From Klenkia soli (GTDB taxonomy: Bacteria > Actinomycetota > Actinomycetes > Mycobacteriales > Geodermatophilaceae), in contig NZ_FNIR01000006.1 of assembly GCF_900103975.1 (NCBI RefSeq), positions 1 to 64,000 on the forward strand: a stretch of DNA of 64,000 nt, read 5' to 3'. Positions within the stretch are counted from its first letter, which is position 1; the number at the start of each line of letters is the position of its first letter. The notes under the pieces are model-generated. The model worked only from the letters and a program-made list of their open reading frames with translations, was not told the origin of the DNA and did no database searches. A program made the position numbers and the translations under genes. Positions 33,815-63,331 of this stretch are shown here, piece by piece.

Positions 33815-35881
<2,067 letters not shown>

Positions 35882-35907
35882 CGGTGCTCCTCGGGGTGCG
35901 GGGTGGG

Positions 35908-36276
35908 TCAGGGGAGGGGGCGGAAGCCGGCGCACACCGCGTGCACCCGGGCGATCCGGCCCCCGTCGTCCAGGTCGTAGTAGGCGCGCTGCTCGACCAG
36001 GTGCCGGCCGTCCTCGTTGCGCACGACGAGCCGGTAGTCGACCCGGTGCCGGTCGGCGACGTCGGCGGTCTCCACCGACACCACCTCCTCCACCACGTCG
36101 GTCGGCTCGAACCAGCGGTAGAGCACCTCGTGCACGGTGGCGCCGGCGGTCGAGGCCTCCCAGAACCGGCCCGGCGTCATCCCGCGGAACTCCACCGACG
36201 GGGAGAGGACGGCGAGCAACCGGTCGGTGTCCTTGGCCGCCAGCGCCGCGACGAACTCGGCTCCGGGGTCGGTCAC
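35908..36276 (-). CDS. NTF2/SnoaL-like protein of the paa cluster
   Basis: 122 residues from the GTG overlapping the TetR stop (GTGA). It looks like an NTF2-fold protein: VAALAAKDTDRLLAVLSPSVEFRGMTPGRFWEA and a C-terminal beta-rich EQRAYYDLDDGGRIARVHAVCAGF. Such proteins may be enzymes or binding proteins; no catalytic residues are clear. It is co-translated with the paa regulator and sits before paaZ, which suggests a role in phenylacetate metabolism, perhaps handling a CoA intermediate. That role is inference. Confidence 0.7.
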   Translation of the reverse strand: MTDPGAEFVAALAAKDTDRLLAVLSPSVEFRGMTPGRFWEASTAGATVHEVLYRWFEPTDVVEEVVSVETADVADRHRVDYRLVVRNEDGRHLVEQRAYYDLDDGGRIARVHAVCAGFRPLP

Positions 36277-36860
36277 GGCGCACGCAGCCCGGCGAACAGG
36301 GTGGTGACCAGCCCGTCGGCCAGGGCCTGGGCGCCGAGCCCACCGCCGGGGCGGTACCACTCGGTGAGGGAGTTGACCGTGCCGAACAGCAGCCGGCTGG
36401 TCAGCGCGGGGTCGACGTCCGGGCGCACGGACCCCTCGGCGACGCAGTCGCGCACCAGGTCGGTGACCACGCGGTCGAACTCGCGTCGGCGGGCCAGCGC
36501 GTGCGCCTCGACCGGCGAGTTCCCCCGCACCCGCAGCAGCAGCGTGACGAAGGGCAGCTCGGCGACGAGCACCCCGACCGACCCGCGGACGACGGCCTCC
36601 AGCCGGTCGATCGCCGGTCGCTCGTCCGCCGCGGGCAGGACGGCGAACAGCCCGTCCAGCGCCCGGTCCAGCGCCAGCTCCAGCAGCTCGACCTTCGAGC
36701 GCACGTGGTGGTAGATCGCGGACTTGGTGACCCCCAGCCGCTCGGCCAGGGTGTCCATCGACGTCGCCTCGTAGCCGCGCTCGATGAAGACCGCGACGGC
36801 GACGTCGAGCAGGGAGTCCAGCGAGTGGCCCGGGCGACCGCGCCGGACCGGGGCGGTCAC
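36273..36860 (-). CDS. TetR-family regulator of the phenylacetate cluster (PaaR-like)
   Basis: 195 residues from the GTG overlapping the paaK stop. The helix-turn-helix is LLDVAVAVFIERGYEATSMDTLAERLGVTKSAIYHHV. Two closely related palindromes of the TetR type lie in the paaK-paaA region (38213-38230 and 38975-38998), so this protein is the obvious candidate to bind both and repress the cluster until phenylacetyl-CoA forms. The link to the operators is inference from position. PaaR-like TetR repressors are known in other bacteria. Confidence 0.88.
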   Translation of the reverse strand: MTAPVRRGRPGHSLDSLLDVAVAVFIERGYEATSMDTLAERLGVTKSAIYHHVRSKVELLELALDRALDGLFAVLPAADERPAIDRLEAVVRGSVGVLVAELPFVTLLLRVRGNSPVEAHALARRREFDRVVTDLVRDCVAEGSVRPDVDPALTSRLLFGTVNSLTEWYRPGGGLGAQALADGLVTTLFAGLRAP

Positions 36861-38188
36861 CGCGCTCGCCGATCGGTCAGCCGCTGGAGCTTGCCCATCG
36901 AGCGGGGCAGGGTCTCGGGGTCGACGACGACCACCTCGACGCTGGTGCCGACGGTCTCCTTGAGGCCGACCTGCACCTCGGCTGCGGCGGGGGAGCGGCG
37001 CTCGGCCGGGCAGTCGGGGCGGGCCTCGACCGAGACGACCAGGTGGTCCATGCGGCCGCGGGTCGACAGCTCCAGCGCGAAGTGCGGCGACAGCCCCGCC
37101 GTGCGCAGCACGACCTCCTCGATCTGGGTCGGGAAGAGGTTCACCCCGCGCAGGATGATCATGTCGTCGGTGCGGCCGGTGACCTTCTGCATCCGCCGCA
37201 TGCCCGGCCGCGCGGTGCCGGGCAGCAGCCGGGTGAGGTCGCGGGTGCGGTACCGGATGATCGGCAGCGCCTCCTTGGTCAGCGAGGTGAACAGCAGCTC
37301 GCCCTCCTCGCCGTCGGGCAGCGGCTCGGCGGTCAGCGGGTCGACGACCTCGGGCAGGAAGTGGTCCTCCCAGACGTGCAGGCCGTCCTTGGTCTCCACG
37401 CACTCCTGGCTGACGCCGGGGCCCATGACCTCGCTCAGGCCGTAGATGTCGACCGCGTGGATGTCGAGCCGGTCCTCCATCTCGCGGCGCATCTGCTCGG
37501 TCCACGGCTCGGCGCCGAAGATGCCGATCTGCAGGGACGACGACCGGGGGTCGACGCCCTGCCGCTCGAACTCGTCGACCAGCGCGAGCATGTACGAGGG
37601 CGTGACCATGATGATCCGCGGGCCGAAGTCGCCGATCAGCTGCACCTGCCGCGGGGTCATGCCGCCCGAGATCGGGACGACGGTGCAGCCCAGCGCCTCG
37701 GCGCCGTAGTGCGCGCCCAGCCCGCCGGTGAACAGGCCGTAGCCGTAGGCGTTGTGCAGCATGTCGCCGCTGCGCCCGCCGGCGGCACGGATGGAGCGGG
37801 CCATGACGGTGGCCCAGGTGTCGACGTCCTTCCGGGTGTAGCCGACGACGGTGGGCTTGCCGGTGGTGCCGGAGCTGGCGTGCACCCGGGCGACCTGGTC
37901 CTTCGGCACGGCGAACATGCCGAACGGGTAGTTCTCGCGCAGGTCGGCCTTGCTCGTGGTGGGGAACTTCGCCAGGTCGGCGAGGGAGCGGCAGTCGTCG
38001 GGATGCACGCCGTGCGCGTCGAAGGCCCGGCGGTAGTGCGGCACGTTCTCGTAGGCGTGCCGCAGCGTCCACTGCAGGCGCTCGAGCTGCAGGGCGCGCA
38101 GCTCGTCGACCCCCATGCGCTCGGCGGGGTCCAGCAGGGCCGGGTCGGGGGCCTCGCCGAGGCGCTGCGGTGCGGACGTCGTCGTCAC
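36857..38188 (-). CDS. paaK: Phenylacetate-CoA ligase
   Basis: Activates phenylacetate to its CoA ester, entry to the pathway. 443 residues with the AMP-binding ARVHASSGTTGKPTVVGYT near residue 110, LSEVMGPGVSQEC and the C-terminal TGRTDDMIILRGVNLFPTQIEE. The start is taken as the GTG at 38188, which has a GGGAG ribosome site. The longer frame opening at 38233 would start inside the operator and encode it as protein, and is rejected. The stop overlaps the TetR gene start. Confidence 0.95.
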   Translation of the reverse strand: MTTTSAPQRLGEAPDPALLDPAERMGVDELRALQLERLQWTLRHAYENVPHYRRAFDAHGVHPDDCRSLADLAKFPTTSKADLRENYPFGMFAVPKDQVARVHASSGTTGKPTVVGYTRKDVDTWATVMARSIRAAGGRSGDMLHNAYGYGLFTGGLGAHYGAEALGCTVVPISGGMTPRQVQLIGDFGPRIIMVTPSYMLALVDEFERQGVDPRSSSLQIGIFGAEPWTEQMRREMEDRLDIHAVDIYGLSEVMGPGVSQECVETKDGLHVWEDHFLPEVVDPLTAEPLPDGEEGELLFTSLTKEALPIIRYRTRDLTRLLPGTARPGMRRMQKVTGRTDDMIILRGVNLFPTQIEEVVLRTAGLSPHFALELSTRGRMDHLVVSVEARPDCPAERRSPAAAEVQVGLKETVGTSVEVVVVDPETLPRSMGKLQRLTDRRAR

Positions 38189-38212
38189 GTGGACTCCCGG
38201 AGCTGCAGGATT

Positions 38213-38230
38213 ACTGACCGTTCGGTCAGT
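38213..38230. promoter_or_regulatory. TetR-type operator upstream of paaK
   Basis: A perfect palindrome, ACTGACCG-TT-CGGTCAGT, 24 bases before the paaK start. Its twin is in front of paaA (38975-38998). Confidence 0.8.
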
Positions 38231-38257
38231 CATGCAAGCGCTCCGGGAGGCCGGCTG

Positions 38258-38869
38258 TCAACCCGCGGTCATGTCCCCGGTGCCGGGGGTGCCCTCGACC
38301 AGGCCGTAGCGCAGCAGGACGCTGCCGGTGGGGGCCGCGACCGGGGGCTCGAGCAGGCGCAGGTTGGTGGGCACGGCGCCGTCGGCGAACACCTTCCGGC
38401 CCTGGCCGAGCATCAGCGGGTGCAGCCAGAGGTGCAGCTCGTCGAAGAGCTTCTCGCCCAGCAGGGTCTGCACCAGGCCGAGGCTGCCGACCACCTTGAC
38501 GACCTCGTGCCGCTCCCGGACCTCCCGGATCGCGGCGGGCAGGTCTGCGCCCAGCTGCGTCGACCCGGCCCAGGACAGGTCCGGCGTACCGCGCGAGGCC
38601 ACGTACTTGGGGACGGCGTTGAACAGCTCGGCGAAGGGGTCGGACTGGTGCGGCCAGTAGGCGGCGAAGATGTCGTAGGTCCGCCGGCCCAGCAGCAGCG
38701 CGTCGGTGCCCTCGTAGGAGGCCTGGACCTGGGCGCCTGCGACGTCGTCCATGAGCGGTGCCTGCCAGCCGCCGAAGGCGAACCCGTCCGACGGGTCCTC
38801 CTCCGGACCGCCGGGGCCCTGCCCGACGAGGTCGAGGGTGGCGAACAGCTCGAGGTGGATCTGGCCCAT
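38258..38869 (-). CDS. RibD C-terminal (dihydrofolate reductase-like) protein
   Basis: 203 residues from the ATG at 38869 ([18 protein letters not shown]), with a GAGGAG ribosome site; an ATG at 38914 gives 15 more unlikely residues. The fold is that of RibD C-terminal/[61 protein letters not shown]. It probably uses NADPH; the substrate is not known. It lies between the two paa operators, on the paaK strand but with its own ribosome site, so it may be an insert unrelated to phenylacetate. Confidence 0.82.
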
Positions 38870-38974
38870 GGGGTGCTCCTCGGTGGTGGGCGGGGTCGTC
38901 GAGGTGGAGACCACCGGGCCACCCGGAACTCATCGACGGCGGGGTTGTGCCGGCTGCGGATCCGGGGCACACTC

Positions 38975-38998
38975 ATTACCGACCGGATGGTCAGTAAT
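38975..38998. promoter_or_regulatory. TetR-type operator upstream of paaA
   Basis: ATTACCGACC-GGAT-GGTCAGTAAT, arms of ten bases with one mismatch, 22 bases before the paaA ATG. It matches the paaK operator at ACnGACCG...GGTCAGT, so one regulator can control both divergent units. Confidence 0.8.
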
Positions 38999-39020
38999 TG
39001 CACCGCTGGAGGTTCGCCGG

Positions 39021-39971
39021 ATGTCCGCACCCACCGTCGCCCGTCCCACCGAGGACGAGCTGCAGGCGCAGTTCGACGCCACCATCGCCGCCGATCACCG
39101 GATCGAGCCGCGCGACTGGATGCCCGAGGCCTACCGCAAGGGCCTGGTGCGGCAGATCGCCCAGCACGCGCACTCCGAGATCATCGGCATGCAGCCCGAG
39201 GGCGACTGGCTGCTGGCCGCCCCGTCGCTGCGCCGCAAGGCCGTGCTGCTCGCCAAGGTCCAGGACGAGGCCGGGCACGGCATGTACCTGTACTCGGCCG
39301 CCGAGACCCTGGGCGCCGACCGCGCCGACCTGACCGACAAGCTCATCGAGGGCCGGCAGAAGTACTCCTCGATCTTCAACTACCCCACGCTGACCTACGC
39401 CGACTGCGGCGTCATCGGCTGGCTGGTCGACGGCGCGGCGATCTGCAACCAGGTGCCGCTGTGCCGCTCGAGCTACGGGCCCTACGCCCGCGCGATGATC
39501 CGGGTCTGCAAGGAGGAGTCCTTCCACCAGCGGCAGGGCTACGAGCTGCTCATGACGATGATGCGCGGCACCGCCGAGCAGCGGGCGATGGTGCAGGACG
39601 CCGTCGACCGCTGGTGGTGGCCCTCGCTGATGATGTTCGGCCCGCCGGACGACGACAGCCCGAACTCGGCGCAGTCGATGGCCTGGGGCGTGAAGCGGCA
39701 CAGCAACGACGAGCTGCGCCAGCGCTACGTCGACATGTCGGTCCCGCAGGCGGAGGCGCTCGGCGTCACGCTGCCCGACCCCGAGCTGGCCCTCGACGAG
39801 GCCACGGGCCGCTACCGGTTCGGCGCCATCGACTGGGCCGAGTTCAAGCAGGTCATCTCGGGCAACGGGCCGTGCAACGAGGAGCGGATCACCCGCCGCC
39901 GCGCCGCCCGCGACGACAACGCCTGGGTGACCGAGGCGGCCACCGCCTACGCCGACAAGCACGCGTCGTGA
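39021..39971 (+). CDS. paaA: Phenylacetyl-CoA epoxidase subunit A
   Basis: Catalytic di-iron subunit of the multicomponent monooxygenase that makes the ring epoxide of phenylacetyl-CoA. 316 residues: [20 protein letters not shown] gives an ExxH iron motif, [14 protein letters not shown] the second, and [22 protein letters not shown] the family core. A GGAGG ribosome site eight bases before the ATG marks the start. It opens the paaABCDE operon, next to the paaA operator. The paaB start overlaps its stop. Confidence 0.96.
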
Positions 39972-40354
39972 GCGAGACGACCGCGGCGGAGACGACAGCG
40001 GAGGGCGGCCACGGCGCCGTCCCAACCGGGCCCGAGATCCCCAGCGGCGCCGAGCCGACGAGGGCGACCGCCCGCCGGGACTGGCCGCTCTACGAGTGCT
40101 TCGTCCGCGGCAAGCGCGGCCTCAACCACGTGCACGTCGGGTCGCTGCACGCCCCCGACGACGAGATGGCCGTGCACGCCGCCCGCGACCTGTTCACCCG
40201 CCGCAACGAGGGCGTGAGCATCTGGGTCGTGCGGGCCAGCGACATCACCGCGTCCAGCCCCGACGAGAAGGACCCGATGTTCGCCCCGGCGGGTGACAAG
40301 GTCTACCGCCACCCCACGTTCTACGAGATCCCCGAGAACGTCCCTCATATCTGA
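39968..40354 (+). CDS. paaB: Phenylacetyl-CoA epoxidase subunit B
   Basis: Small structural subunit of the epoxidase. 128 residues from the GTG overlapping paaA. The family core is [31 protein letters not shown], followed by [17 protein letters not shown] and a [16 protein letters not shown] ending. The first ~35 residues are a low-complexity tail longer than in the E. coli protein. It has no catalytic site of its own. Two palindromes lie between it and paaC. Confidence 0.95.
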
Positions 40355-40364
40355 AGCAGGGTGG

Positions 40365-40426
40365 CCGTCATGTGACGGTCACGCACCACTTTTCCCGAGT
40401 TCTGGTTCGTCAGCGTCATATGACGC
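40365..40426. promoter_or_regulatory. Two related palindromes between paaB and paaC
   Basis: CCGTCA-TG-TGACGG (40365-40378) and the perfect GCGTCATATGACGC (40413-40426) share the core GTCATNTGAC and have centres 48 bp apart. They fall in the one real gap of the paaABCDE run. They may be a second operator pair, RNA processing sites or an internal promoter control; no protein is assigned. Confidence 0.55.
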
Positions 40427-40447
40427 CCCCGAGGTGGAGTGAGAGCG

Positions 40448-41359
40448 ATGGCGCACGAGGAGACGGTGTACGACGCGTTGGACCACGCGCACGGGGGCGA
40501 GGGGCAGTGGGCCTTCGGCACGGGGTTCGACGACCCGCTGGCTGGGGTGGACACCACGATCCCCGACGGCGTGGACGCCGCCGACCTGGGCGCCTACTGC
40601 CTGATGCTCGGCGACGACGCCCTGGTGCTCTGCCAGCGGCTCACCGAGTGGGCCACCCGGGCGCCCGAGCTCGAGGAGGAGGTCGCGATCGCCAACTGCG
40701 GCCTGGACCTGCTCGGCCAGGCCCGGCTGCTGCTGGCCCGCGCGGGCACCTGCTGTGTGCTCGGCCGGTCCCGCGAGCACGCCACCGACTCCATCCCCGA
40801 CGAGGACGCGCTGGCCTACTTCCGCGACGTCGATGAGTTCGCCAACCACCACCTGGCCGAGGCCGACGGCGGGGACTTCGCGCAGACGATGGTCCGCCTG
40901 CTGGTCGCCAGCACGCACCGGCTCGCCCTCGTCGCGAAGCTGCGGGAGTCCCGCGACCCGGTGGTCAGCGCGATCGCGGCCAAGGGCGTGCCCGAGCTGA
41001 CCTACCACCGCGACCACGCCGCCCGCTGGGTGCTGCGGCTGGGCGACGGCACGCCCGAGTCGCACCGTCGCGCGCAGGTCGCCGTCGACGCCGTCTGGCC
41101 GTTGACCGCCGACCTGTTCACCGCCACCGACGTCGAGCTGCGGCTGGTCGCCCAGGGCGTCGCGGTGGACCCCGCGGACACCCGCGACGAGGTGCGCGAC
41201 GTCCTCACCATGGTCGTCGAGCGGGCCACCCTCACCGTGCCCGCGTGGCCGGCCGACCGGCCGAGCCCGGGCCGGGCGGGGGAGCACACGGACGAGCTGG
41301 CCCCGCTGCTGGCCACCCTGCAGGGGCTGGCCCGCGAGCACCCGGCGGCCACCTGGTGA
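40448..41359 (+). CDS. paaC: Phenylacetyl-CoA epoxidase subunit C
   Basis: Second ferritin-fold subunit, needed for the A-C heterodimer. 303 residues from the ATG at 40448, which has a GAGGTGGAG ribosome site; a GTG at 40439 would overlap that site. Features: LGDDALVLCQRLTEWATRAPELEEEVAIANCGLDLLGQAR and YFRDVDEFANHHLAE, then ELTYHRDHAARWVLRLGDG. It is the first gene after the paired palindromes and ends 7 bases before paaD. Confidence 0.94.
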   Translation: MAHEETVYDALDHAHGGEGQWAFGTGFDDPLAGVDTTIPDGVDAADLGAYCLMLGDDALVLCQRLTEWATRAPELEEEVAIANCGLDLLGQARLLLARAGTCCVLGRSREHATDSIPDEDALAYFRDVDEFANHHLAEADGGDFAQTMVRLLVASTHRLALVAKLRESRDPVVSAIAAKGVPELTYHRDHAARWVLRLGDGTPESHRRAQVAVDAVWPLTADLFTATDVELRLVAQGVAVDPADTRDEVRDVLTMVVERATLTVPAWPADRPSPGRAGEHTDELAPLLATLQGLAREHPAATW

Positions 41360-41366
41360 GCCGGCC

Positions 41367-41867
41367 GTGAGCACGCTGACCGACCCGCGGGCGGTCGCCG
41401 AGACCGTCACCGACCCCGAGCTGCCGATGCTGACCCTGGCCGACCTCGGGGTGCTGCGCGACGTGCGCACCGAGGACGACGGCACGGTGGTCGTCACCAT
41501 CACCCCCACCTACTCCGGCTGCCCGGCGATGGGCGTCATGCGCGCCGACCTGGTGCACGCGCTGCACCGGGCCGGGTTCGCCGACGTCGACGTCCGCACC
41601 GTGCTCTCGCCGCCCTGGTCGACGGACTGGATCAGCGACGAGGGCCGGGCCAAGCTCGCCGCGGGCGGCATCGCCCCGCCCGGCCGGGCCACCAAGCACA
41701 CCGGACCCATCCCGCTCAGCCTCGGGCGCACGATGCGCACCGCCACCTGCCCGGTGTGCGGCAGCGCCGACACCGAGGAGCTCAGCGAGTTCAGCGGCAC
41801 CGCCTGCAAGGCGCTGCGCCGCTGCCGCACCTGCCGCGAACCGTTCGAGCACGTCAAGGAGATCTAG
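41367..41867 (+). CDS. paaD: PaaD, assembly factor of the epoxidase
   Basis: 166 residues of the MIP18/DUF59 family with a C-terminal cysteine-rich part. The DUF59 core is VTDPELPMLTLADLGVLRDV and ITPTYSGCPAMGVMR (conserved Cys). The tail has CPVCGSADTEEL and CRTC, a likely metal or Fe-S site. PaaD is thought to help mature the iron-sulfur reductase PaaE. Start GTG at 41367. The stop overlaps paaE by one base. Confidence 0.93.
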   Translation: MSTLTDPRAVAETVTDPELPMLTLADLGVLRDVRTEDDGTVVVTITPTYSGCPAMGVMRADLVHALHRAGFADVDVRTVLSPPWSTDWISDEGRAKLAAGGIAPPGRATKHTGPIPLSLGRTMRTATCPVCGSADTEELSEFSGTACKALRRCRTCREPFEHVKEI

Positions 41868-42934
41868 TGGCGCGCACCCGTCCGACCTTCCACCCGCTGA
41901 CGGTGGCCCGGGTCGAGCAGCTCACCGACGACGCCGTGGCCGTCACCTTCGACGTGCCCGACGACCTCGCCGACGACTACGCCTTCGCCCCCGGCCAGGC
42001 GCTCACCCTGCGCCGGGTCGACGGCGACCGCGACGAGCGGCGCTCCTACTCGATCTGCGCGCCGACGGGTGCCGCCCCGAGGGTGGGCGTGCGCGAGGTG
42101 CCGGGCGGCTACTTCTCGGCCTGGCTGGTCAACGAGGTGCGTCCGGGCCAGACGATCGACGTCCTGCCCCCCTCGGGCACCTTCACCGCCGACCTCTCCA
42201 CCCCGGCCGACCACGTGTTCGTCGTCGCCGGCTCCGGGGTGACGCCGGTGCTCAGCCTGGCCGGCACGGTGCTGCGCGACGGCGAGTCCACCGTGACCGT
42301 GTTCTACGGCAACCGGCGCACCAACACCGTGATGTTCGCCGACGAGCTGGCCGACCTGAAGGACCGCTTCGGCGAGCGCCTGCAGCTGGTGCACGTGCTC
42401 TCCCGCGAGCCCCGCGACGCCGAGGTCACCAGCGGCCGGCTGGACGGCGAGCGGCTGCGCACCCTGGTCGAGGCGCTGGTCGACGTCCCCGAGGTCGAGC
42501 ACTGGTGGCTGTGCGGGCCGCACGGCATGGTCACCGACGCCCAGGAGCTGCTCGCCGAGCTGGGCGTGCCGCGCGATCGGGTGCACCAGGAGCTGTTCTT
42601 CGTCGACGACGCGCCACCCGAGCCGGTGCGCGGCGACGACCAGGCCGTCGACGGCCCCTCCAGCCAGGTGACCATCGTGCTCGACGGCCGCAGCACCACC
42701 CTGGCGCTGGCCCAGGGCGTGCCCGTGCTGGACAGCGCGCAGCAGATCCGCTCGGACCTGCCCTTCGCGTGCAAGGGCGGGGTCTGCGGCACCTGCCGGG
42801 CCAAGGTCACCGCCGGTGAGGTCGAGATGCGCCGCAACTACGCCCTGGACCCCGACGAGGTGGCCAAGGGCTACGTGCTCACCTGCCAGACGGTGCCGGT
42901 GTCCGCCGAGGTGACCGTCGACTTCGACGCCTAA
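41867..42934 (+). CDS. paaE: Phenylacetyl-CoA epoxidase reductase subunit E
   Basis: Transfers electrons from NADPH to the epoxidase. 355 residues: a flavin-binding reductase half (RRSYSICAPTGAAP, VFVVAGSGVTPVLSLAGTVL) and a C-terminal plant-type 2Fe-2S ferredoxin (FACKGGVCGTCRAKV, then YVLTCQTVP for the fourth Cys). The GTG at 41867 overlaps the paaD stop. It ends the operon; the idi promoter starts on its stop codon. Confidence 0.95.
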   Translation: MARTRPTFHPLTVARVEQLTDDAVAVTFDVPDDLADDYAFAPGQALTLRRVDGDRDERRSYSICAPTGAAPRVGVREVPGGYFSAWLVNEVRPGQTIDVLPPSGTFTADLSTPADHVFVVAGSGVTPVLSLAGTVLRDGESTVTVFYGNRRTNTVMFADELADLKDRFGERLQLVHVLSREPRDAEVTSGRLDGERLRTLVEALVDVPEVEHWWLCGPHGMVTDAQELLAELGVPRDRVHQELFFVDDAPPEPVRGDDQAVDGPSSQVTIVLDGRSTTLALAQGVPVLDSAQQIRSDLPFACKGGVCGTCRAKVTAGEVEMRRNYALDPDEVAKGYVLTCQTVPVSAEVTVDFDA

Positions 42935-43482: not shown

Positions 43483-44451
43483 TCAGCCGCGCGGGTCGAC
43501 GACCAGCCGGACGACGCAGCCGTCGCCGTTCTCCAACGGCGCGGTGGTCATGCGGTCGACCGCACGCCGGGCCAGCCACAGGCCCATGCCGCCGACCGAG
43601 AGGTCGTCGCCGTGGGCGGGGCCGTAGCCGGCCAGCGGCTCGTCGAAGCCCTGCCCGCGGTCGGCCACCACGCACAGCACCCGGCGCTCGGTCACCCACA
43701 ACCGGACGTCGACCGGCGGCACGCCGTGCTCGGCGGCGTTGGCCACGACCTCGTCGATGGCCAGCACCAGGTCCTCGGCCCCGGCGGGGTCGAGCGGTCC
43801 ACCGGCCAGGCTGCTGGTCAACGCCCGGCGCAGCTCGCGCATGCTGCCGACGTCCTCGACCTCCAGGGTGGGGCGGGTGGCCTCCAGCGGGTCGGCCTCG
43901 GGTGCCGACCACAGCGAGCGGAGGACCTCGGCCGGGTCGCGCCGGGTCGGGTTGAGCACGGGTCCGTCCGCGGCGAGCACCCACGGGTGGCAGGACATCG
44001 CCTGGTCGGCGGCGGCGCCCAGGGCACGGTCGTCCACGACGCAGTAGTGGTCGACCGCCCGGTCGGCGAGCACGTGGTTCAGCAGGGCCTCGGTCTGCAA
44101 CCAGGCCGGGACGCCGGCGCCGTGCACGCCGCTGCTGTCGGTGACCAGGTGCACCCGGGTACCGGTGAAGCGGTCCAGCAGCGCGGTGTAGCCGGCCAGG
44201 GCGTCGGGCGCCCGCCCGGAGAGGAGGGCCGGGTCGACGGTGTGCACGGCCTCGGCGGGAAGCCGTTGCCGCAGCGCGGTGCCCAGGCCGGAGGAGCAGG
44301 CGAGCACGACGGTGTCACCGGCCTCGAGCCCGGCGGTCAGCTCGGGCAGCAGCACCTCGGCGGAGCCGGGTCCGGGCACGCCGAACCGGGCCACGTGCAC
44401 GTAACCCTCCGCGCGCCGTGACCGCAGACCCCCGCTGCTGGTCGCCACCAT
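43483..44451 (-). CDS. MEDS-domain protein with HATPase_c (RsbW-like) C-terminus
   Basis: 322 residues. The N-terminal ~190 residues look like a MEDS sensory domain (FGVPGPGSAEVLLPEL, ALLDRFTGTRVHLVTDSSG), the DcmR-type fold that senses small molecules. The last ~130 residues are an anti-sigma-type histidine-kinase-like ATPase: LAIDEVVANAAEHGVPP (N box), VVADRGQGFDEPL (G1) and VGGMGLWLARRAVDRM (G2). Such proteins bind sigma factors or antagonists. The neighbouring phytochrome-PP2C is the natural phosphatase partner type, though nothing proves they meet. The start at 44451 is the ATG before MVATSSGGL. Confidence 0.82.
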   Translation of the reverse strand: MVATSSGGLRSRRAEGYVHVARFGVPGPGSAEVLLPELTAGLEAGDTVVLACSSGLGTALRQRLPAEAVHTVDPALLSGRAPDALAGYTALLDRFTGTRVHLVTDSSGVHGAGVPAWLQTEALLNHVLADRAVDHYCVVDDRALGAAADQAMSCHPWVLAADGPVLNPTRRDPAEVLRSLWSAPEADPLEATRPTLEVEDVGSMRELRRALTSSLAGGPLDPAGAEDLVLAIDEVVANAAEHGVPPVDVRLWVTERRVLCVVADRGQGFDEPLAGYGPAHGDDLSVGGMGLWLARRAVDRMTTAPLENGDGCVVRLVVDPRG

Positions 44452-44545: not shown

Positions 44546-45577
44546 GTGCATGCCGACGTGGTGGTCATCGGGGCGGGTCAGGCCGGGTTGTCCGCCGCCC
44601 ACCACCTGCAGCGGGCCGGCGCCGACTTCGTCGTGCTCGACGCCGACGCCGCGCCCGGTGGCGCCTGGCAGCACCGGTGGTCCTCGCTGCGCCTGGACCG
44701 GGCCAACGGGATCGCGGACCTGCCCGGGCTCCCGCTGACCGGGGACCCCGCCGAGCGGGCCTCGACCGCGATGGCCCGGTACTTCGCCGAGTACGAGGCG
44801 CACTTCGCCCTGCCGGTGCGCCGCCCGGTCGCCGTCCGGCGGGTCACCCGCACCGACGACGGCTTCGCCCTGGACACCGGTGAGGGGACCTGGACCACCC
44901 GCGGGCTGGTCAACGCCACGGGTACCTGGTCGCGGCCGTTCTGGCCGGCCTACCCGGGCCGCGGGACCTTCCGCGGTCGGCAGCTGCACGCGGCGCAGTT
45001 TCCCGAGGCGGCGGACTTCGCCGACCAGCACGTGCTGGTCGTGGGCGGCGGCATCTCGGCGCTGCAGCTGCTGGTGGAGGTCGCGGAGGTCACCCGCACG
45101 ACCTGGGTGACCCGACGTCCACCGGTCTGGCGCGACACCGACTTCGACCCCGACGCCGGCCGGGCGGCGGTCGCCCTGGTCGAGCAGCGCGTCCGGGCCG
45201 GCCTCCCCCCGGGCAGCGTCGTGTCGGTCACCGGGCTGCCGGTCACCGACGAGGTGCGCCGCGCGCGGGAGCGGGGTGTGCTCGACCGGTTGCCCGCGTT
45301 CGACCGGATGACCCCGACCGGCGTCGGCTGGGACGACCCGCGCCGTGAGCTGGACGTCGACGTCGTGCTGTGGGCGACCGGCTTCCGCGCCGCGCTGGAC
45401 CACCTCGCGCCGCTGCACCTGCGCGTGCCCGGTGGCGGCATCGTCGTGGACGGCACCCGGGTGGTCGCCGAGCCGCGCCTGCACCTGGTCGGCTACGGCC
45501 CCTCGGCCAGCACGATCGGTGCCAACCGGGCCGGCCGGACCGCCGTGCAGGAGCTGCTGGCCACGCTGGCGGGCTGA
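44546..45577 (+). CDS. Flavin-dependent monooxygenase-like oxidoreductase
   Basis: 343 residues with two Rossmann folds: VVVIGAGQAGLSAAHHL for FAD and VLVVGGGISALQLLVEV for NADPH. The FRGRQLHAAQFPEAADF stretch is of the FMO/CzcO style (FxGxxxH), and ATGTWSRPFWPAYPGR is the family's central Gly loop. At 343 residues it is shorter than Baeyer-Villiger enzymes, fitting the small FMO/putrescine or thiol-oxidoreductase type. Substrate unknown. It lies between the MEDS and phytochrome genes on the opposite strand, so a role in the circuit is not implied. Confidence 0.85.
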   Translation: MHADVVVIGAGQAGLSAAHHLQRAGADFVVLDADAAPGGAWQHRWSSLRLDRANGIADLPGLPLTGDPAERASTAMARYFAEYEAHFALPVRRPVAVRRVTRTDDGFALDTGEGTWTTRGLVNATGTWSRPFWPAYPGRGTFRGRQLHAAQFPEAADFADQHVLVVGGGISALQLLVEVAEVTRTTWVTRRPPVWRDTDFDPDAGRAAVALVEQRVRAGLPPGSVVSVTGLPVTDEVRRARERGVLDRLPAFDRMTPTGVGWDDPRRELDVDVVLWATGFRAALDHLAPLHLRVPGGGIVVDGTRVVAEPRLHLVGYGPSASTIGANRAGRTAVQELLATLAG

Positions 45578-45582
45578 GCGGC

Positions 45583-47973
45583 CTACCGGTCGGGGCGCGG
45601 GCGGTCCTGCCGGTGCAGCCGGACGGCGACCAGGGCGACGTCGTCCTCGGCCCGCTCGGGCAGGAACTCCTCGAGCAGGGTGTCGACCAGCTCGACGACC
45701 GGGGTGCCCACCATGCCGGGCAGCCGCTGCCGGAGCGCGTCGATGCCCTCGTCGAAGCCCTGGTCGCGGCGCTCGACGAGGCCGTCGGTGTACAGCAGCA
45801 CCGTGGAGCCGCGCGAGAGCGTGACCACGTGGTCGCGGCGGGTGGCACCCGGCAGGACGCCGAGCAGCAGGTCGGCCCGCCCGCCGCCGTCGAGCAGCTG
45901 CGTGGAGCCGTCGGGGTCCAGGACGACCGGCGGCGGGTGGCCGGCGTTGGACCAGCGCAGGCGGGTGATGCCCTGCTCGGCCTCCTCGGGGGTCTGCTCC
46001 AGCCGGGCGACCACCACCGAGGCGATGGCCCCCAGCTGCAGGCCCTCGACGGCGGCGTCGAGCCGGCTGAGGACGCCGGCGGGACCGTGGTCGCTGTCGT
46101 AGGCGATGCCGCGCAGCAGGCCGCGCAGCTGGCCCATCACCGCGGCGGCCTCGATGTCGTGGCCGGCGACGTCGCCGATGACCAGCACGGTGGCGCCGTC
46201 GGGCTGGGTGAAGGCGTCGTACCAGTCGCCGCCGACCTGGGCCTCGCGGGCGGCGGGGACGTAGCGGACGGCCATCTGCACGTGGTCGGGCTGCGGCGGC
46301 TCGGACAGCATGCTGCGCTGCAGCGTCACCGCGGTGCGGGCCACCCGGCGGGAGCGGGCGTACAGGGCCTCGAGCAGGTTGTGCCGCAGCTCGACCGCCT
46401 CGGCGACCTCGGCCGCCGTCCACGGCTCGGAGCGGCCCCGGACGGTCTCCTCCCAGCGGGCGAAGGACTTGCGCGGGCTGATCCGCACGTGGTCGCCCTC
46501 GGGCACGAGCTCGGCCTTGCGGTGGGGGTCGCCGCCCCAGTCGACCGTGCGGATCTTCTCCTGCCGGACCCACAGCACGTACTGGCCCTCGGGCAGCGGG
46601 ACGGCGAGGACGCCGCAGGCCACCTCGGTGGGCACACCCAGCGCGGGGGCGTCGGCGGTCAGGCAGTCGGTGGCGACGGCCTCGCGCGACTGGCCGGCAG
46701 CCCACTCGGCCACCGCCGCGCAGACCGCGGGGTCCAGCGGGGTCCCGCGGAGGGCGGAGTGGCCCTGCAGCTCGACCGCGACGGTGTCGGCGTCGACGAG
46801 GTCGAGCAGGTCGGGGGTGCCCAGCAGGGAGTCGGCCAGCGGCCGCTCCTCGTCGAGGGTCGCGGCGGTCAGCCAGGCCAGGGTGGAGCGGGCCCGCAGG
46901 GCGCGGCGGACCTCCTCCTCGGCGGCGCGGTCGACCAGGCGCAGCGACAGCGTGGAGGCCAGGAACTCGGCGGCGGCGCGGGTGGCGTAGGGCGGGGCGT
47001 GCGGGCCGGCGTAGTGGTGGCAGGCGATGAGGCCCCAGAGCTTGTCGTCGCGCAGCAGCGAGATCGACATGGAGGCGGCCACCCCCATGTTGCCGAGGTA
47101 CTCGACGTGGATGGGGGAGACGCTGCGCAGCGTGGAGTAGGTGAGGTCCAGCGGCTTGCCGGTGACCGGGTGGTCGACCGGGTGGATGAGGGCCGGTGCG
47201 TAGGGCACCTCGGAGATCAGCCGGATCCAGTTCTTCTCGTACAGCGCCCGGGCCTGCGCCGGGATGTCGGAGGCCGGGTAGTGCAGCCCGAGCAGGGTCT
47301 CCAATCCGCCGTGCTGGGCCTCGGCGACGACCTCGCCGTTGAACTCCTCGTCGTAGCGGTAGAGCATCACGCGGTCAAAGCCGGTGAGGCTGCGCACCGC
47401 CTCGACGGTGATGTCGTAGAGGTCCTGCAGCTCGGTCGCCCGGTTCAGCTCGGCGATGGTGCCGCGCACGGCCTGGTAGGTGTTCGGGAAGCTGAACGGC
47501 CGCGGGCCGAAGGCCGGTTCCAGCTCGATCACCAGGCTGCTGGCCAGCGGGCGGCCGGCGGCGTCCAGGGGCACCTCGGCCGAGTTCAGCTGCTGGTGGC
47601 CGGGCGCGCCGTGCACCGCGCGGTGCAGGATCGCGTCCACCGGCACGGGAGTGCCGTCGCGGTCCAGGGTCAGCTCGACCGGGTTGCGCTCGCGCAGGTC
47701 GCCGAAGGCGGCCGCGCTGCGGGCCACGGCCTGGGCGGGGACGGTGCCGAGCACCTCGGCCAGGGGGCGGCCCAGCGCCTGGGTCCAGGGGATGCCCACG
47801 ACGTCGAGGAGGTTCTCCGACACCTGCTCGACCAGGAGGTCCGGTTCGCTCACCGCGAGCAGCGCCCCGCGGGGCTGGATGCTGCCGGGGACGTGGATCG
47901 GCTCGCGCTCGCAGTTGGACAGGTCGACCGGCGTGCCGGGGGCCAACCACGGGCCGGGCTGGGTCTCCGTCAC
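45583..47973 (-). CDS. Bacteriophytochrome with PP2C (SpoIIE-type) phosphatase output
   Basis: 796 residues. PAS: C21 in LSNCEREPIHVPGSIQPRG is the biliverdin-binding cysteine of the bacterial type. GAF (about 155-330): YPASDIPAQARALY, SPIHVEYLGNMG and LIACHHYAG hold the conserved Asp and His residues around the chromophore. PHY (to about 520): VDWGGDP and SPRKSFARWEE give the WGG and PRxSF motifs of the tongue. A helical linker leads to PP2C: GGDWYDAF, GDVAGHDIEAAA, NAGHPPP, YTDGLVERR and EDDVALV, with the metal aspartates present. Unlike most bacteriophytochromes it has no histidine kinase. GTG start overlaps bphO (GTGA). Red/far-red control of a phosphatase is inferred. Confidence 0.93.
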   Translation of the reverse strand: MTETQPGPWLAPGTPVDLSNCEREPIHVPGSIQPRGALLAVSEPDLLVEQVSENLLDVVGIPWTQALGRPLAEVLGTVPAQAVARSAAAFGDLRERNPVELTLDRDGTPVPVDAILHRAVHGAPGHQQLNSAEVPLDAAGRPLASSLVIELEPAFGPRPFSFPNTYQAVRGTIAELNRATELQDLYDITVEAVRSLTGFDRVMLYRYDEEFNGEVVAEAQHGGLETLLGLHYPASDIPAQARALYEKNWIRLISEVPYAPALIHPVDHPVTGKPLDLTYSTLRSVSPIHVEYLGNMGVAASMSISLLRDDKLWGLIACHHYAGPHAPPYATRAAAEFLASTLSLRLVDRAAEEEVRRALRARSTLAWLTAATLDEERPLADSLLGTPDLLDLVDADTVAVELQGHSALRGTPLDPAVCAAVAEWAAGQSREAVATDCLTADAPALGVPTEVACGVLAVPLPEGQYVLWVRQEKIRTVDWGGDPHRKAELVPEGDHVRISPRKSFARWEETVRGRSEPWTAAEVAEAVELRHNLLEALYARSRRVARTAVTLQRSMLSEPPQPDHVQMAVRYVPAAREAQVGGDWYDAFTQPDGATVLVIGDVAGHDIEAAAVMGQLRGLLRGIAYDSDHGPAGVLSRLDAAVEGLQLGAIASVVVARLEQTPEEAEQGITRLRWSNAGHPPPVVLDPDGSTQLLDGGGRADLLLGVLPGATRRDHVVTLSRGSTVLLYTDGLVERRDQGFDEGIDALRQRLPGMVGTPVVELVDTLLEEFLPERAEDDVALVAVRLHRQDRPRPDR

Positions 47974-48635
47974 GCGGATGCATCTCCGGGGTCGGTCGGT
48001 CGGCCCGCGGCGCGCGACGCCGGCTGCTCGACGTCGGTGCACCACAGGGCCATCGTGGCGAAGGTACGGCGTGCGGCCGCCACGAGCGCGTCGGGATCGC
48101 CCCCGCGGGCCACGTGGTCCCGCACGCTGCGCCGGAAGGACGCCCACCGCGCCCCGGTCTGGTCGCCGTAGGGGCTGAAGGCCGACAACCGACCGACCCC
48201 GGCCAGGGCCGGCAGGGTGCCCAGGTGCCGGTCGATGAACACCCCGCCCAGCGTCGAGCCCTCGAGCACGTACATGGTGCCCAGCGCCTCGGCGGTGGAC
48301 GCCGGGGCGGGGAGGTGGGGGCCCGGGCCAGGGCCCGGTGGCGCGTCGAGGGCGTCGAGGTCGGCGGCGAAGAGGTCCGACCGCCGGCGCGCGGACCAGT
48401 CGACGTCCGCGGCGTCGTCCGGGCGGGCCGCGGCCCAGGCGTCGAGGCCGGCCTCGGCCGTCGTCCAGAAGGCGTGCATGCGGCCGAGGACGGCGATCAA
48501 CCGGGCCGGGGTGAGGCCCGGGTCGAGCAGGTCGAGGGTGTCCTCGAGCTGCTGGTGCTCGGTCGCGGTGGCGGTGCGCAGCTGGAGCATCACGTCCGGG
48601 GCGGGACGCGGGTGCTCGATCGGGTCCGCCGTCAT
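47970..48635 (-). CDS. bphO: Heme oxygenase (biliverdin-producing, BphO type)
   Basis: 221 residues of the bacterial heme oxygenase family. The TATATEHQQLEDTLDLL segment has the proximal heme histidine (H27), and LEGSTLGGVFIDRHL and FSPYGDQTGARWASFR are the distal helix features. It cleaves heme to biliverdin, iron and CO, and its place directly upstream of the phytochrome (GTGA overlap) shows it supplies the chromophore. It starts at an ATG that overlaps the PucR stop (ATGA), so the three genes are one translational chain. Confidence 0.95.
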   Translation of the reverse strand: MTADPIEHPRPAPDVMLQLRTATATEHQQLEDTLDLLDPGLTPARLIAVLGRMHAFWTTAEAGLDAWAAARPDDAADVDWSARRRSDLFAADLDALDAPPGPGPGPHLPAPASTAEALGTMYVLEGSTLGGVFIDRHLGTLPALAGVGRLSAFSPYGDQTGARWASFRRSVRDHVARGGDPDALVAAARRTFATMALWCTDVEQPASRAAGRPTDPGDASA

Positions 48636-49768
48636 CGCTCACCGATCCTAGTCGAGCCGGGCCCGGGTCCGGCCGCGAGCCGGGCCGACCGGAGAGCCAG
48701 GTGCAGGGCGAGCCGGTCGCCGCCGTCGGCCAGGTCCAGCCCGCCCAGCTCGGCGATCCGGCCCAGCCGGTAGTACAGCGTCTGCCGGTGCACGACCAGC
48801 TCGGCGGCCGCCCGCTGCGGGGACCCCGCGTGGTCCAGCCACACCTCGGCGGTGCGGCTGAGCACCGGGTCGGCCAGCAGCGCCGCCAGGGCGGGGTCGG
48901 GGCCGCCGAGCCGCACGACCTGCCGCCAGGCACCGAGCTCGGCCCACGAGGCCACCGGCGCCAGCCGTGGGTCGACCGCCGCCACCCGCGCGGCGTCGGA
49001 CGCCTCGCGCCACTGCCGGGGCAGCTCCCGGCACCCCACCGCCGGGCTGCCCACGCCGGCGGTGCTGCCGCGGGGGAGCCGGTGCAGGGCAGCGGCGGAC
49101 ACCGCGACCGCGGGCCGGTCGTCGCGCCGGTGCGGCAGGGGGAGGAGGACGGCGACCAGCGGACCGAGCACCGCGCTGATCGCCCCCGCGCCGGGCGGCT
49201 CCCAGCCGGGCGGGGGGCCGTCGCCGGACGGGCGCAGCGCGACGACGGCCACGGCGGTGCCCGCGCCCAGCCGGCCGGCCAACCGGTCGGCCGCGGCGTC
49301 GTCCCCGCCGAGCGCGGCCCGCAGGTCGCCGGAGACGTCGCCCGGGGCGGGCCGGCCGGCCAGCAGCTCACCGGCCCGGTCGGCCAGCGCGCAGGCCTGC
49401 GCGAGCCCGGGCGGGTCGGGGTCGGCCAGGTCGGTGCGGCCCTCGTCCAGCAGCCACAACCAGCCGTGCAGCCGTCCGCGGTGCCGCACGGGGAGGCACA
49501 GCCGGGTGAGGATCCCGGCCGCCGGGTCGGCCGGCGTGCGCAGCGGGCCGGTGGCCCGGTCGATGCCGAAGTCGGTGAACCACCGGCGGGTGTCCGCGGT
49601 CGACCCGCGGGTCAGGATCGACCGGGTGCGGACGGCGTCCAGCCCGGTCAGCACCTCGTCGCCCTGCGCGCAGAAGGCCAGCAGGGTGAACTCGGGGTCC
49701 TCCAGGGTCGCGGGGGCGCCGAGCAGCCGGGACACCTCGTCCACGAGGTCCTGGAGGTCGTCCCGCAT
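48632..49768 (-). CDS. PucR/CdaR-type transcriptional regulator
   Basis: 378 residues. The C-terminal helix-turn-helix of this family is VWLDHAGSPQRAAAELVVHRQTLYYRLGRIAEL. The N-terminal two-thirds is a ligand-sensing region (LVDEVSRLLGAPATLEDPEFTLLAF) of the GAF/PucR style. The ATG at 49768 follows a TACGAT box at 6 nt. It diverges from the proline catabolism operon, so it is a likely regulator of that operon (PucR-type PutR/PruR proteins do this elsewhere). Its stop is fused to the start of bphO, which links proline and light genes in one message. Confidence 0.88.
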   Translation of the reverse strand: MRDDLQDLVDEVSRLLGAPATLEDPEFTLLAFCAQGDEVLTGLDAVRTRSILTRGSTADTRRWFTDFGIDRATGPLRTPADPAAGILTRLCLPVRHRGRLHGWLWLLDEGRTDLADPDPPGLAQACALADRAGELLAGRPAPGDVSGDLRAALGGDDAAADRLAGRLGAGTAVAVVALRPSGDGPPPGWEPPGAGAISAVLGPLVAVLLPLPHRRDDRPAVAVSAAALHRLPRGSTAGVGSPAVGCRELPRQWREASDAARVAAVDPRLAPVASWAELGAWRQVVRLGGPDPALAALLADPVLSRTAEVWLDHAGSPQRAAAELVVHRQTLYYRLGRIAELGGLDLADGGDRLALHLALRSARLAAGPGPGSTRIGER

Positions 49769-49774
49769 CAGACG

Positions 49775-49780
49775 ATCGTA
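49775..49780 (-). promoter_or_regulatory. -10 box of the pucR-bphO-phytochrome operon (leaderless type)
   Basis: TACGAT on the minus strand, 6 nt before the ATG at 49768. Confidence 0.6.
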
Positions 49781-49865
49781 CGAAGGACTCCGGACAGCTG
49801 TCGCTGGTGACCGTGCGCACCTCACTCCTACGGTCGAGCCAGTCGCTGCTCCCCAGGAGGTCCCG

Positions 49866-50789
49866 GTGCTCGGTCAGGCCCTGCTCGTCGCGTCCCGCCG
49901 CCCCGGCCTGCGCAAGGTCGTCGTCGGCACACCGGTCACCCGGCGCGTGGTCGACCGCTTCGTCGCCGGCGAGGCCCTGCCCGACGCCCTCGCGGCGGTC
50001 GACGCGCTGCGCCGCGACGGCATCGCGGTCACCCTCGACCACCTCGGCGAGGACATCACCACCCGCGCGGAGGCGGTGGCCTCGCGCGACGCCTACCTGG
50101 CCCTGCTCGAGGGGCTGGCGCCGCAGCAGCTGGGCCGCGCCGCCGAGGTGTCGGTGAAGCTCTCCGCCTTCGGCCAGGCCCTCCCCGGCGGGCACGACCT
50201 GGCCCTGGAGCTGGTCCGCCCGGTGGCCGAGGCGGCGACCGCGGCCGGCACCACGGTCACCCTGGACATGGAGGACCACACCACGGTCGACTCCACCCTC
50301 GCCGTCCTCGCCGAGCTGCGCCGTGACCACCCGGGCACCGGCGCCGTCCTGCAGGCGGCCCTGCACCGCAGCGAGGCCGACGCCCGCGACCTCGCGGTCG
50401 CGGGCTCCCGGGTCCGGCTGGTCAAGGGCGCCTACGCAGAGCCCCGCACGGTCGCCTTCACCGACAAGGCCGAGGTCGACGCCGCCTACCGGCGCTGCCT
50501 GGAGGTGCTGCTCACCGGCGACGGCTACCCGATGGTCGGCACGCACGACCCCGCGATGATCGCCCTCGCGCTGGACCTGGTGCGCCGCACCGCCCGGTCG
50601 GCCGACAGCTACGAGTTCCAGCTGCTCTACGGCATCCGCACCGGCGAGCAGCAGCGGCTGGCCGCCGCCGGGTACACCGTGCGGGCCTACGTGCCCTACG
50701 GCGCCGACTGGTACGGCTACTTCATGCGCCGGCTGGCCGAGCGCCCCGCCAACGTCCAGTTCTTCCTCCGCTCCCTCGTGAAAGGCTGA
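49866..50789 (+). CDS. pruB: Proline dehydrogenase, monofunctional
   Basis: Oxidises proline to pyrroline-5-carboxylate in the TIM-barrel FAD fold. 307 residues from the GTG at 49866, with an AGGAGG ribosome site. Features: VTLDMEDHT (FAD site), RLVKGAYAEPR, and the C-terminal YGIRTGEQQRLAAAGYTVRAY then YGADWYGYFMRRLAERPAN with the substrate-binding arginines. TACGGT (49829-49834) is a possible -10 box for a short leader. It faces pucR with about 95 bases between, and is followed by pruA after seven bases. Confidence 0.93.
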   Translation: MLGQALLVASRRPGLRKVVVGTPVTRRVVDRFVAGEALPDALAAVDALRRDGIAVTLDHLGEDITTRAEAVASRDAYLALLEGLAPQQLGRAAEVSVKLSAFGQALPGGHDLALELVRPVAEAATAAGTTVTLDMEDHTTVDSTLAVLAELRRDHPGTGAVLQAALHRSEADARDLAVAGSRVRLVKGAYAEPRTVAFTDKAEVDAAYRRCLEVLLTGDGYPMVGTHDPAMIALALDLVRRTARSADSYEFQLLYGIRTGEQQRLAAAGYTVRAYVPYGADWYGYFMRRLAERPANVQFFLRSLVKG

Positions 50790-50796
50790 TCACCCC

Positions 50797-52418
<1,622 letters not shown>

Positions 52419-52422
<4 letters not shown>

Positions 52423-62803: not shown

Positions 62804-63331
62804 TCAGACGCCGGCGATGCGCGGTGCGGTGGGGTCGGCGCCCTCGCCGGCGGCCGCCTCCCGCTGCACGTAGTCCTCGATCTGCTCGACGTCGTGCGCG
62901 CTGCGCTTGGCGACGGCCAGCAGGTCGCTCATCTTGCTGACCTCCTCGACCTGCTCCTTGATGAACCACTGCATGAACTGGTCGGAGGCGAAGTCGTTCT
63001 CGCGCCGGGCGATCGCGGTGAGCTCGTTGATCTGCTCCGTGACGCGCTTCTCCTGCTCGAGGGCCAGGGCGACCGGCGCGACCACGTCGGTGAAGTCGTT
63101 GATCGGGGCCGGCAGGGCCGGGATGCGCACGTCGGCGTCGGCGTCGAGCAGGTAGCGCACCATCATCATCGCGTGGCTGCGCTCCTCGGCGGCCTGGTCG
63201 AAGAACAGCTGCGCGGTCTGCTGCATCGTCTGCTGGTCGTAGTAGACCGCGCAGGCGATGTACTGCTGGTGCGCGGCGAACTCGTTGCCGATCTGCACGT
63301 TGAGCTGGTTCACGAAGGCTTCGGCGGCCAC
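62804..63331 (-). CDS. Ferritin (non-heme)
   Basis: Iron-storage protein, 175 residues from the GTG at 63331, with a GAGGAG ribosome site. Ferroxidase residues are seen in LNVQIGNEFAAHQQYIAC (E, H) and QAAEERSHAMMMVRYLLD (E-x-x-H), then QFMQWFIKEQVEEVSKM, typical of the BfrB-like bacterial ferritin. It is transcribed against the carboxylase genes and separates beta from alpha. Its own regulation is probably by iron; no Fur/IdeR box was recognised. Confidence 0.93.
   Translation of the reverse strand: MAAEAFVNQLNVQIGNEFAAHQQYIACAVYYDQQTMQQTAQLFFDQAAEERSHAMMMVRYLLDADADVRIPALPAPINDFTDVVAPVALALEQEKRVTEQINELTAIARRENDFASDQFMQWFIKEQVEEVSKMSDLLAVAKRSAHDVEQIEDYVQREAAAGEGADPTAPRIAGV

Follow-up and report, generated by a model that had tools for sequence, protein, structure and literature searches.

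Background

In the bphO-bphP operons of other bacteria the heme oxygenase gene directly precedes the gene of a bacteriophytochrome, the output of which is mostly a histidine kinase. The locus described here, from Klenkia soli (Actinomycetes, Geodermatophilaceae; assembly GCF_900103975.1, 4.76 Mb in 25 contigs), keeps this order of heme oxygenase (HO) and phytochrome (BphP) genes, but the output of BphP is a SpoIIE-type phosphatase. It lies in a stretch of 64,000 nucleotides, positions 1 to 64,000 of the forward strand of contig NZ_FNIR01000006.1, which is hereafter called the window. We propose that HO and BphP form a two-gene unit and that this pair is a light-set phosphatase acting on a STAS antagonist, which would free a sigma factor of the SigB/F type, while the adjacent PucR-family regulator stands apart and belongs with the proline genes; as a whole, we rate this reading somewhat above an even chance.

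SpoIIE/PPM-type output has been listed as an effector class of bacteriophytochromes in the legend of a phylogenetic tree (PMC9587094). The class resembles BphP in joining PAS-GAF-PHY to a SpoIIE/PPM-type phosphatase, but the legend gives no function, partner or operon for it. For RsbU it has been described that helical (coiled-coil) linkers dimerise and activate the phosphatase, a mechanism proposed for other sensors too (PMC12143880). RsbU, RsbP and RsbZ, as presented there, are similar to BphP in that a PPM catalytic domain follows a helical linker from the sensor and a STAS substrate is expected; they differ in that the sensor is not a phytochrome, and our model of BphP does without a partner like RsbT for activation. 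The phytochrome-activated diguanylate cyclases represented by PadC likewise connect a phytochrome through a helix to an output domain active as a dimer, but the output there is GGDEF and the linkers come in several lengths (PMC9587094), whereas our BphP set exhibits one length in 85 of 86 aligned sequences. Finally, the SigF switch of Mycobacterium smegmatis comprises RsbW kinases, STAS antagonists and an rsbW-sigF gene pair (PMC7693655); such a gene pair is present also in the genome of K. soli, while the switch as outlined in that source includes no phytochrome.

In the open-licence literature we found no functional study of a phytochrome-SpoIIE fusion and no report of a phytochrome in Geodermatophilaceae. 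The fusion itself is already in print; the comparative evidence on STAS partners and exchangeable heme oxygenases is additional as far as these searches go. If BphP acts as proposed, it would provide soil actinobacteria with a single-protein route from red/far-red light to a SigB/F-type stress response, and a phytochrome-switched serine phosphatase acting on STAS proteins, if real, would be a useful optogenetic part.

The phytochrome-phosphatase and its heme oxygenase

The pair comprises the following features (window coordinates):

45583..47973, minus strand: bacteriophytochrome BphP, PAS_2-GAF-PHY-SpoIIE/PPM, 796 aa (Pfam domains, conserved residues)
47911..47913, minus strand: Cys21 codon; biliverdin is predicted to attach at this residue (Cys column of the 86-row alignment)
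46312..46416, minus strand: helix between PHY and the phosphatase domain, residues 520-554 (structure model and alignment)
45616..46203, minus strand: SpoIIE/PPM phosphatase domain (PF07228, E 5e-40; six invariant Asp)
47970..48635, minus strand: heme oxygenase HO, BphO-like, predicted biliverdin source (predicted from the fold)
47970..47973: GTGA overlap of the HO stop and the BphP start

At E<=1e-3 Pfam identifies only PHY, SpoIIE, PAS_2 and GAF in BphP, with the PF07228 domain at full length (1-191 of 192 profile positions) and no HisKA or HATPase (histidine-kinase) output among the matches. The protein exhibits the PAS-GAF-PHY order, an N-terminal Cys, the DIP motif, the conserved His and the PRxSF tongue of bacteriophytochromes; the phytochrome and SpoIIE-type phosphatase motifs named in an earlier, sequence-only reading of this DNA are present, as judged by the sequence and Pfam. 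In an alignment of 86 BphP sequences, Cys21 is aligned in 77 rows, and the other 9 encode a Cys upstream of the called start. D236 and P238 of DIP, His289, and P500, R501, S503 and F504 of PRxSF are invariant (86/86), Ile237 of DIP is replaced by Val in 5 rows, and the phosphatase residues D583, D586, D601, D730, D777 and D778 are kept in all 86; the metal-binding Asp residues of the family are presumably among these. The nearest relatives, among the best 80 of 243 as well as on the tree, are Geodermatophilaceae proteins from Klenkia and one Modestobacter with 80-83% identity. The search was confined to the class, sampled by 394 genomes from 138 genera, and the BphP alignment found matches (E<=1e-100) in 34 genomes of 12 genera, of which G039 and G285 match in the sensor part only and G181 partially. 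Four loci (L172, L183, L189 and L190) have two phytochrome-like genes near one another, the match in L189 and L190 being limited to the sensor part.

HO has the HO-1/HmuO/PigA fold, with no PF01126 match at E<=1e-3, and H27, nearly invariant across 21 aligned HO sequences, is a candidate for the proximal His. It lies beside BphP in 46 of the 52 named Geodermatophilaceae loci (L045-L096), the remaining six being five Modestobacter loci without HO (L052, L056, L058, L093, L095) and L092, which is cut by a contig end. In 38 of the 46 the HO stop and the BphP start, as called, share exactly 4 bp; in five further loci HO ends with (A/G)TGA and the caller picked an earlier BphP start, and L082, L085 and L096 deviate (gene starts, gaps and overlaps in relatives are those of an in-house gene caller, and the starts are approximate). 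Beyond the window's orthologue group, 10 of 64 loci have a related HO gene (families f20 and f31) no more than two genes from BphP; these 64 comprise 28 named loci and 36 from the class sample, with species possibly repeated, and include L189, L190 and L192, whose match misses the phosphatase part. On a quick tree of 86 rows, from which L189, L190, L192 and 29 of the 53 loci of the family (including L092 and L096) were left out, the HO trait needs at least 5 changes. The coupling of HO to the phytochrome gene, suggested earlier from the overlap in the window, is kept throughout most of the family, and by its conserved gene order HO-BphP is a real, stable two-gene unit.

All five Modestobacter genomes without operonic HO encode a canonical HO elsewhere (L195-L197, L199, L200; PF01126 E 1e-56 to 1e-58), and no strong PF01126 match was found in the 45 searched family genomes with operonic HO (43 in the main search and 2 more). 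Weak matches occur in 22 of the 43 (20.1-35.1 bits) and in 23 of the 45 (at most 35.1 bits); in three cases compared by coordinates (G406, G433, G437) the weak match is the operonic HO itself, on the assumption that the contigs are identical for G433 and G437. These whole-genome searches covered the family apart from L046 and L088, with L092 represented by L094, which is the same strain. Judged by gene content, the operonic HO of the Modestobacter clade is exchanged, not lost, and because the five genomes form one clade on the tree, the replacement is counted as one event.

Could HO serve heme-iron use or redox balance instead, with BphP as a light-independent sensor of redox state or biliverdin level? 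The HO family is used also in iron acquisition, and the window includes a ferritin-like gene (62804-63331; PF00210, 3.5e-35), though some 14 kb away. Against this, the HO-BphP overlap is conserved, and Cys21, D236/P238 of DIP, His289 and PRxSF are kept, so we regard this explanation as very improbable.

A different arrangement is seen in six Mycolicibacterium/Mycobacterium loci (L099, L111, L113, L117, L120, L123), in which a gene of the ABM fold (~100 aa; PF03992 in L099) lies directly 3' of BphP. None of these six genomes has a PF01126 match; the other 22 named genomes from outside Geodermatophilaceae include 18 with PF01126 and 4 with neither a PF01126 match nor an ABM gene (the mycobacterial HO counts for L109, L112 and L123 come from metagenome bins, in which absence is a weak sign). 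It is possible that the ABM-fold gene is an alternative source of biliverdin, or that its position is a coincidence within one clade. It was considered as a heme-degrading enzyme because of PF03992 and is kept as a lead only: the Asn and His of IsdG/MhuD were not seen in the ABM gene beside BphP.

The PucR-family regulator and the proline genes

Upstream of the pair the following features are found:

48632..49768, minus strand: regulator of the PucR family (HTH_30), which most likely controls the divergent proline genes
48632..48635: ATGA overlap of the PucR stop and the HO start
49769..49865: intergenic stretch of 97 bp that separates the divergent PucR and proline dehydrogenase genes
49866..50789, plus strand: proline dehydrogenase (PF01619, 2.1e-35); the start is taken as GTG at 49866, 6 bases past AGGAG (49855-49859)
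50797..52422, plus strand: aldehyde dehydrogenase family, pyrroline-5-carboxylate dehydrogenase (P5CDH) by position (PF00171, 3.8e-101)

The gene coordinates bear out the earlier description of PucR, HO and BphP as three minus-strand genes, arranged head to tail and joined by the ATGA and GTGA overlaps. From this arrangement PucR-HO-BphP could be read as one functional operon, in which PucR would respond to a metabolite or to redox state, tune the light sensor and couple it to proline use. The two overlaps do suggest a shared transcript, PucR neighbours HO-BphP in most family loci (it is present in 40 of the 52 named ones), and a 4-bp PucR-HO overlap as called recurs in 4 of the 35 relatives with both genes (L045, L047, L050, L080; 13 bp in L046). 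We nevertheless consider such an operon improbable. The called gap between PucR and HO is at least 28 bp in 30 of the 35 loci, including four (L065, L070, L072, L079) in which PucR stays beside proline dehydrogenase, 1.2-1.4 kb from HO. Ten loci with enough flank have HO-BphP without PucR (L062, L074-L078, L081, L082, L086, L088; L096, near a contig end, is not among them), and in G028 the two groups are on different contigs, HO-BphP on contig 8 and PucR with proline dehydrogenase on contig 5. Proline dehydrogenase accompanies PucR in 37 of the 40 loci; in the remaining 3 the contig ends at PucR.

The same association is found in the class, where PucR (E<=1e-20) occurs in 17 of 118 genomes, that of K. 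soli included. The 16 other genomes contain 17 homologues (split matches counted once), 12 of which adjoin proline genes (L216-L224, L226/L234, L228/L233, L229/L235; 46-56% identity), 11 of them proline dehydrogenase and L221 aldehyde dehydrogenase. Five more divergent homologues (L225, L227, L230, L231, L232; 33-44%) have no proline genes beside them, and neither BphP nor HO was found within ~1.5 kb on each side of any of the 17. The idea that PucR is a functional member of a light operon has consequently been given up: it tracks proline dehydrogenase, in 37 of 37 checkable family loci and in 12 of the 17 homologues elsewhere, and is separable from HO-BphP. With its HTH_30 domain and adjacent proline genes kept across genomes, PucR most plausibly regulates the divergent proline-use genes; HO-BphP lies behind PucR and may share its transcript, with no functional tie. 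PruC/PutR-like is presumably the name for PucR-type regulators of this kind (PruC was not found in our literature search), i.e. HTH_30 proteins divergent from a proline dehydrogenase-P5CDH gene pair, as in the window, which adds the two following genes. Separating PucR from HO-BphP averts a false link between proline and light.

STAS proteins as a probable target of the phosphatase

The proposed mechanism is as follows. Judging from its fold, HO would open heme to biliverdin, which, according to the motifs, would attach at Cys21 of BphP. By analogy with RsbU and PadC, red/far-red photoconversion would refold the PHY tongue and shift the helix 520-554, and this shift would set the dimerisation of two SpoIIE/PPM domains and hence their activity, the direction being left unspecified. 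The gene neighbourhoods of relatives suggest that the phosphatase would take the phosphate off a serine of a STAS antagonist, which in its dephosphorylated form would hold an RsbW-type kinase and free a SigB/F-type sigma factor.

The neighbourhoods in question belong to the 64 loci that are not in the orthologue group; 18 of them have a STAS gene no more than two genes from BphP. Counted by gene slot, STAS occupies 18 of 248 positions at distance 1-2, 4 of 232 at 3-4 and 0 of 363 at 5 or more (nearest versus farthest slots: Fisher p 6e-8, with the loci related and their kinship ignored). The first hidden Markov model (HMM) for STAS had been seeded from BphP neighbours, with a risk of circularity; the count was repeated with a final HMM built solely from STAS domains of the K. 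soli genome, and the values given are from the latter. Ten of the 18 STAS-bearing loci have, in addition, a HATPase gene at most two genes from BphP, and the neighbour examples submitted to Pfam were confirmed as STAS or HATPase_c_2. One of the 18 (L176; G390:C1:495400-509700) is a second, distant (40%) SpoIIE-type BphP in a Geodermatophilaceae genome, with adjoining STAS and HATPase genes. Among the 22 short STAS sequences, the 21 that were read at this place (all but L117) have a Ser where it is expected. For 9 of the 22 BphP-neighbour STAS proteins the best match is the K. soli STAS near SigF, but six of the nine are from one mycobacterial clade, and we count this for neither side. The STAS-neighbour trait changes at least 8 times on the quick tree.

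The K. soli genome gives Pfam matches to 7 STAS, 24 HATPase_c_2 and 13 SpoIIE domains, some under the cut-offs, and several of the HATPase_c_2 frames are long enough for histidine kinases. A single sigma gene, on contig C12, scores above the SigB/F/G cut-off (297.2 bits vs 234.35). It overlaps the end of an RsbW-like HATPase_c_2 gene. Divergent from this HATPase_c_2 gene is another HATPase gene, which includes a weak STAS_2 part, and ~2 kb before the HATPase_c_2 gene there is a STAS gene encoding 133 aa (L212:6453-6854). A standalone STAS protein is encoded also on C22 (L004:1432-1812), and these two are candidate substrates of BphP. A STAS antagonist, an RsbW-like kinase and a SigB/F-type sigma factor are thus all encoded, and the absence of STAS and RsbW-like proteins, which the sequence-only reading had put forward as evidence against itself, did not occur. 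Its claim that the phosphatase acts on a sigma-factor antagonist gains comparative support from the STAS genes near 18 of the 64 distant loci and from the parts in the genome; the empty slots in the window's own group (below) do not add to it. On this comparative evidence BphP most likely targets a pathway of the STAS/RsbW type; linkage to STAS/RsbW genes was seen in more distant homologues only, and BphP is therefore classed as working like a SigB/SigF partner switch, rather than as an established part of one.

As to the linker, residues 520-554 of BphP form one helix from PHY to the phosphatase in the structure model (a monomer model). The W518-Q552 spacing is 35 residues in 85 of the 86 rows, the single outlier having 15 residues more, and the helical periodicity of the linker is weak (shuffle p 0.024).

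Several observations weigh against the proposed mechanism. In the window's orthologue group (53 loci) STAS occupies 0 of 210 slots at distance 1-2, 0 of 202 at 3-4 and 1 of 561 at 5 or more, and the gene calls of the window, with labels read by eye, include no STAS gene beside BphP. Among the other loci 46 of 64 lack a STAS gene at a distance of 1-2, the loci are mutually related and do not have the independence that the Fisher test assumes, and the count of trait changes on the tree cannot separate gain from loss. The HO replacement in five genomes of one clade is a single event. BphP does not share a contig with the SigF-type locus, which is on C12, and 12 other SpoIIE matches (one under the cut-off) could serve that locus. 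BphP was modelled as a monomer, with modest confidence (pLDDT 72, pTM 0.49), and in a control 232 of 706 windows of 35 residues, a third, are equally constant in length, because of which the constancy of the linker counts as mild support and was rejected as a strong sign of a fixed register. Finally, STAS proteins serve also non-sigma pathways, and the link of BphP to a sigma factor is drawn by analogy.

An alternative is that BphP is a light-controlled phosphatase acting on a STAS protein with an output other than a SigB/F-type sigma factor, e.g. a stressosome-like complex, a STAS-controlled enzyme, or the MEDS-HATPase protein encoded downstream of BphP, where two genes have to be considered:

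43483..44451, minus strand: RsbA-like MEDS + HATPase anti-sigma-type protein, candidate partner (171.8 bits, under the family cut-off of 210; family and Pfam scans run from position 44439)
44546..45577, plus strand: ArsO-like flavin monooxygenase, convergent with BphP (337.9 bits vs cut-off 425)

In favour of this alternative, the RsbA-like gene is 1.1 kb downstream and recurs in the flanks of 18 of the 52 named family loci, and the partner-switch genes surveyed beside BphP in relatives are those for STAS and HATPase. However, the 18 loci fall in the part of the family with Klenkia, Modestobacter and Goekera, no RsbA-like gene was found in the flanks of Blastococcus/Geodermatophilus loci, and the protein scores below the family cut-off. 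It was therefore rejected as the obvious partner of BphP, and we judge an output of this other kind possible but on balance doubtful. We do not regard the flavin monooxygenase as a member of the HO-BphP unit.

The reading that we prefer, with a SigB/F-type sigma factor at its end, could be extended to phytochrome-SpoIIE proteins in general as widespread light-gated stress phosphatases of actinobacteria, with a fixed helix length that would pass the light signal on to the phosphatase dimer, STAS/RsbW parts plugged in repeatedly and an exchangeable supply of biliverdin, from a BphO-like HO, a canonical HO or perhaps the mycobacterial ABM-fold enzyme. We offer this extension as a speculation that is rather unlikely to hold in full.

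Other observations in the window

The promoter and terminator scan found 0 and 0, a scan that is uninformative at the G+C content of the window, and the composition profile contained no island of odd composition. Positions 33815-42934 encode a gene set that, from reading the translations, resembles a phenylacetate degradation cluster.

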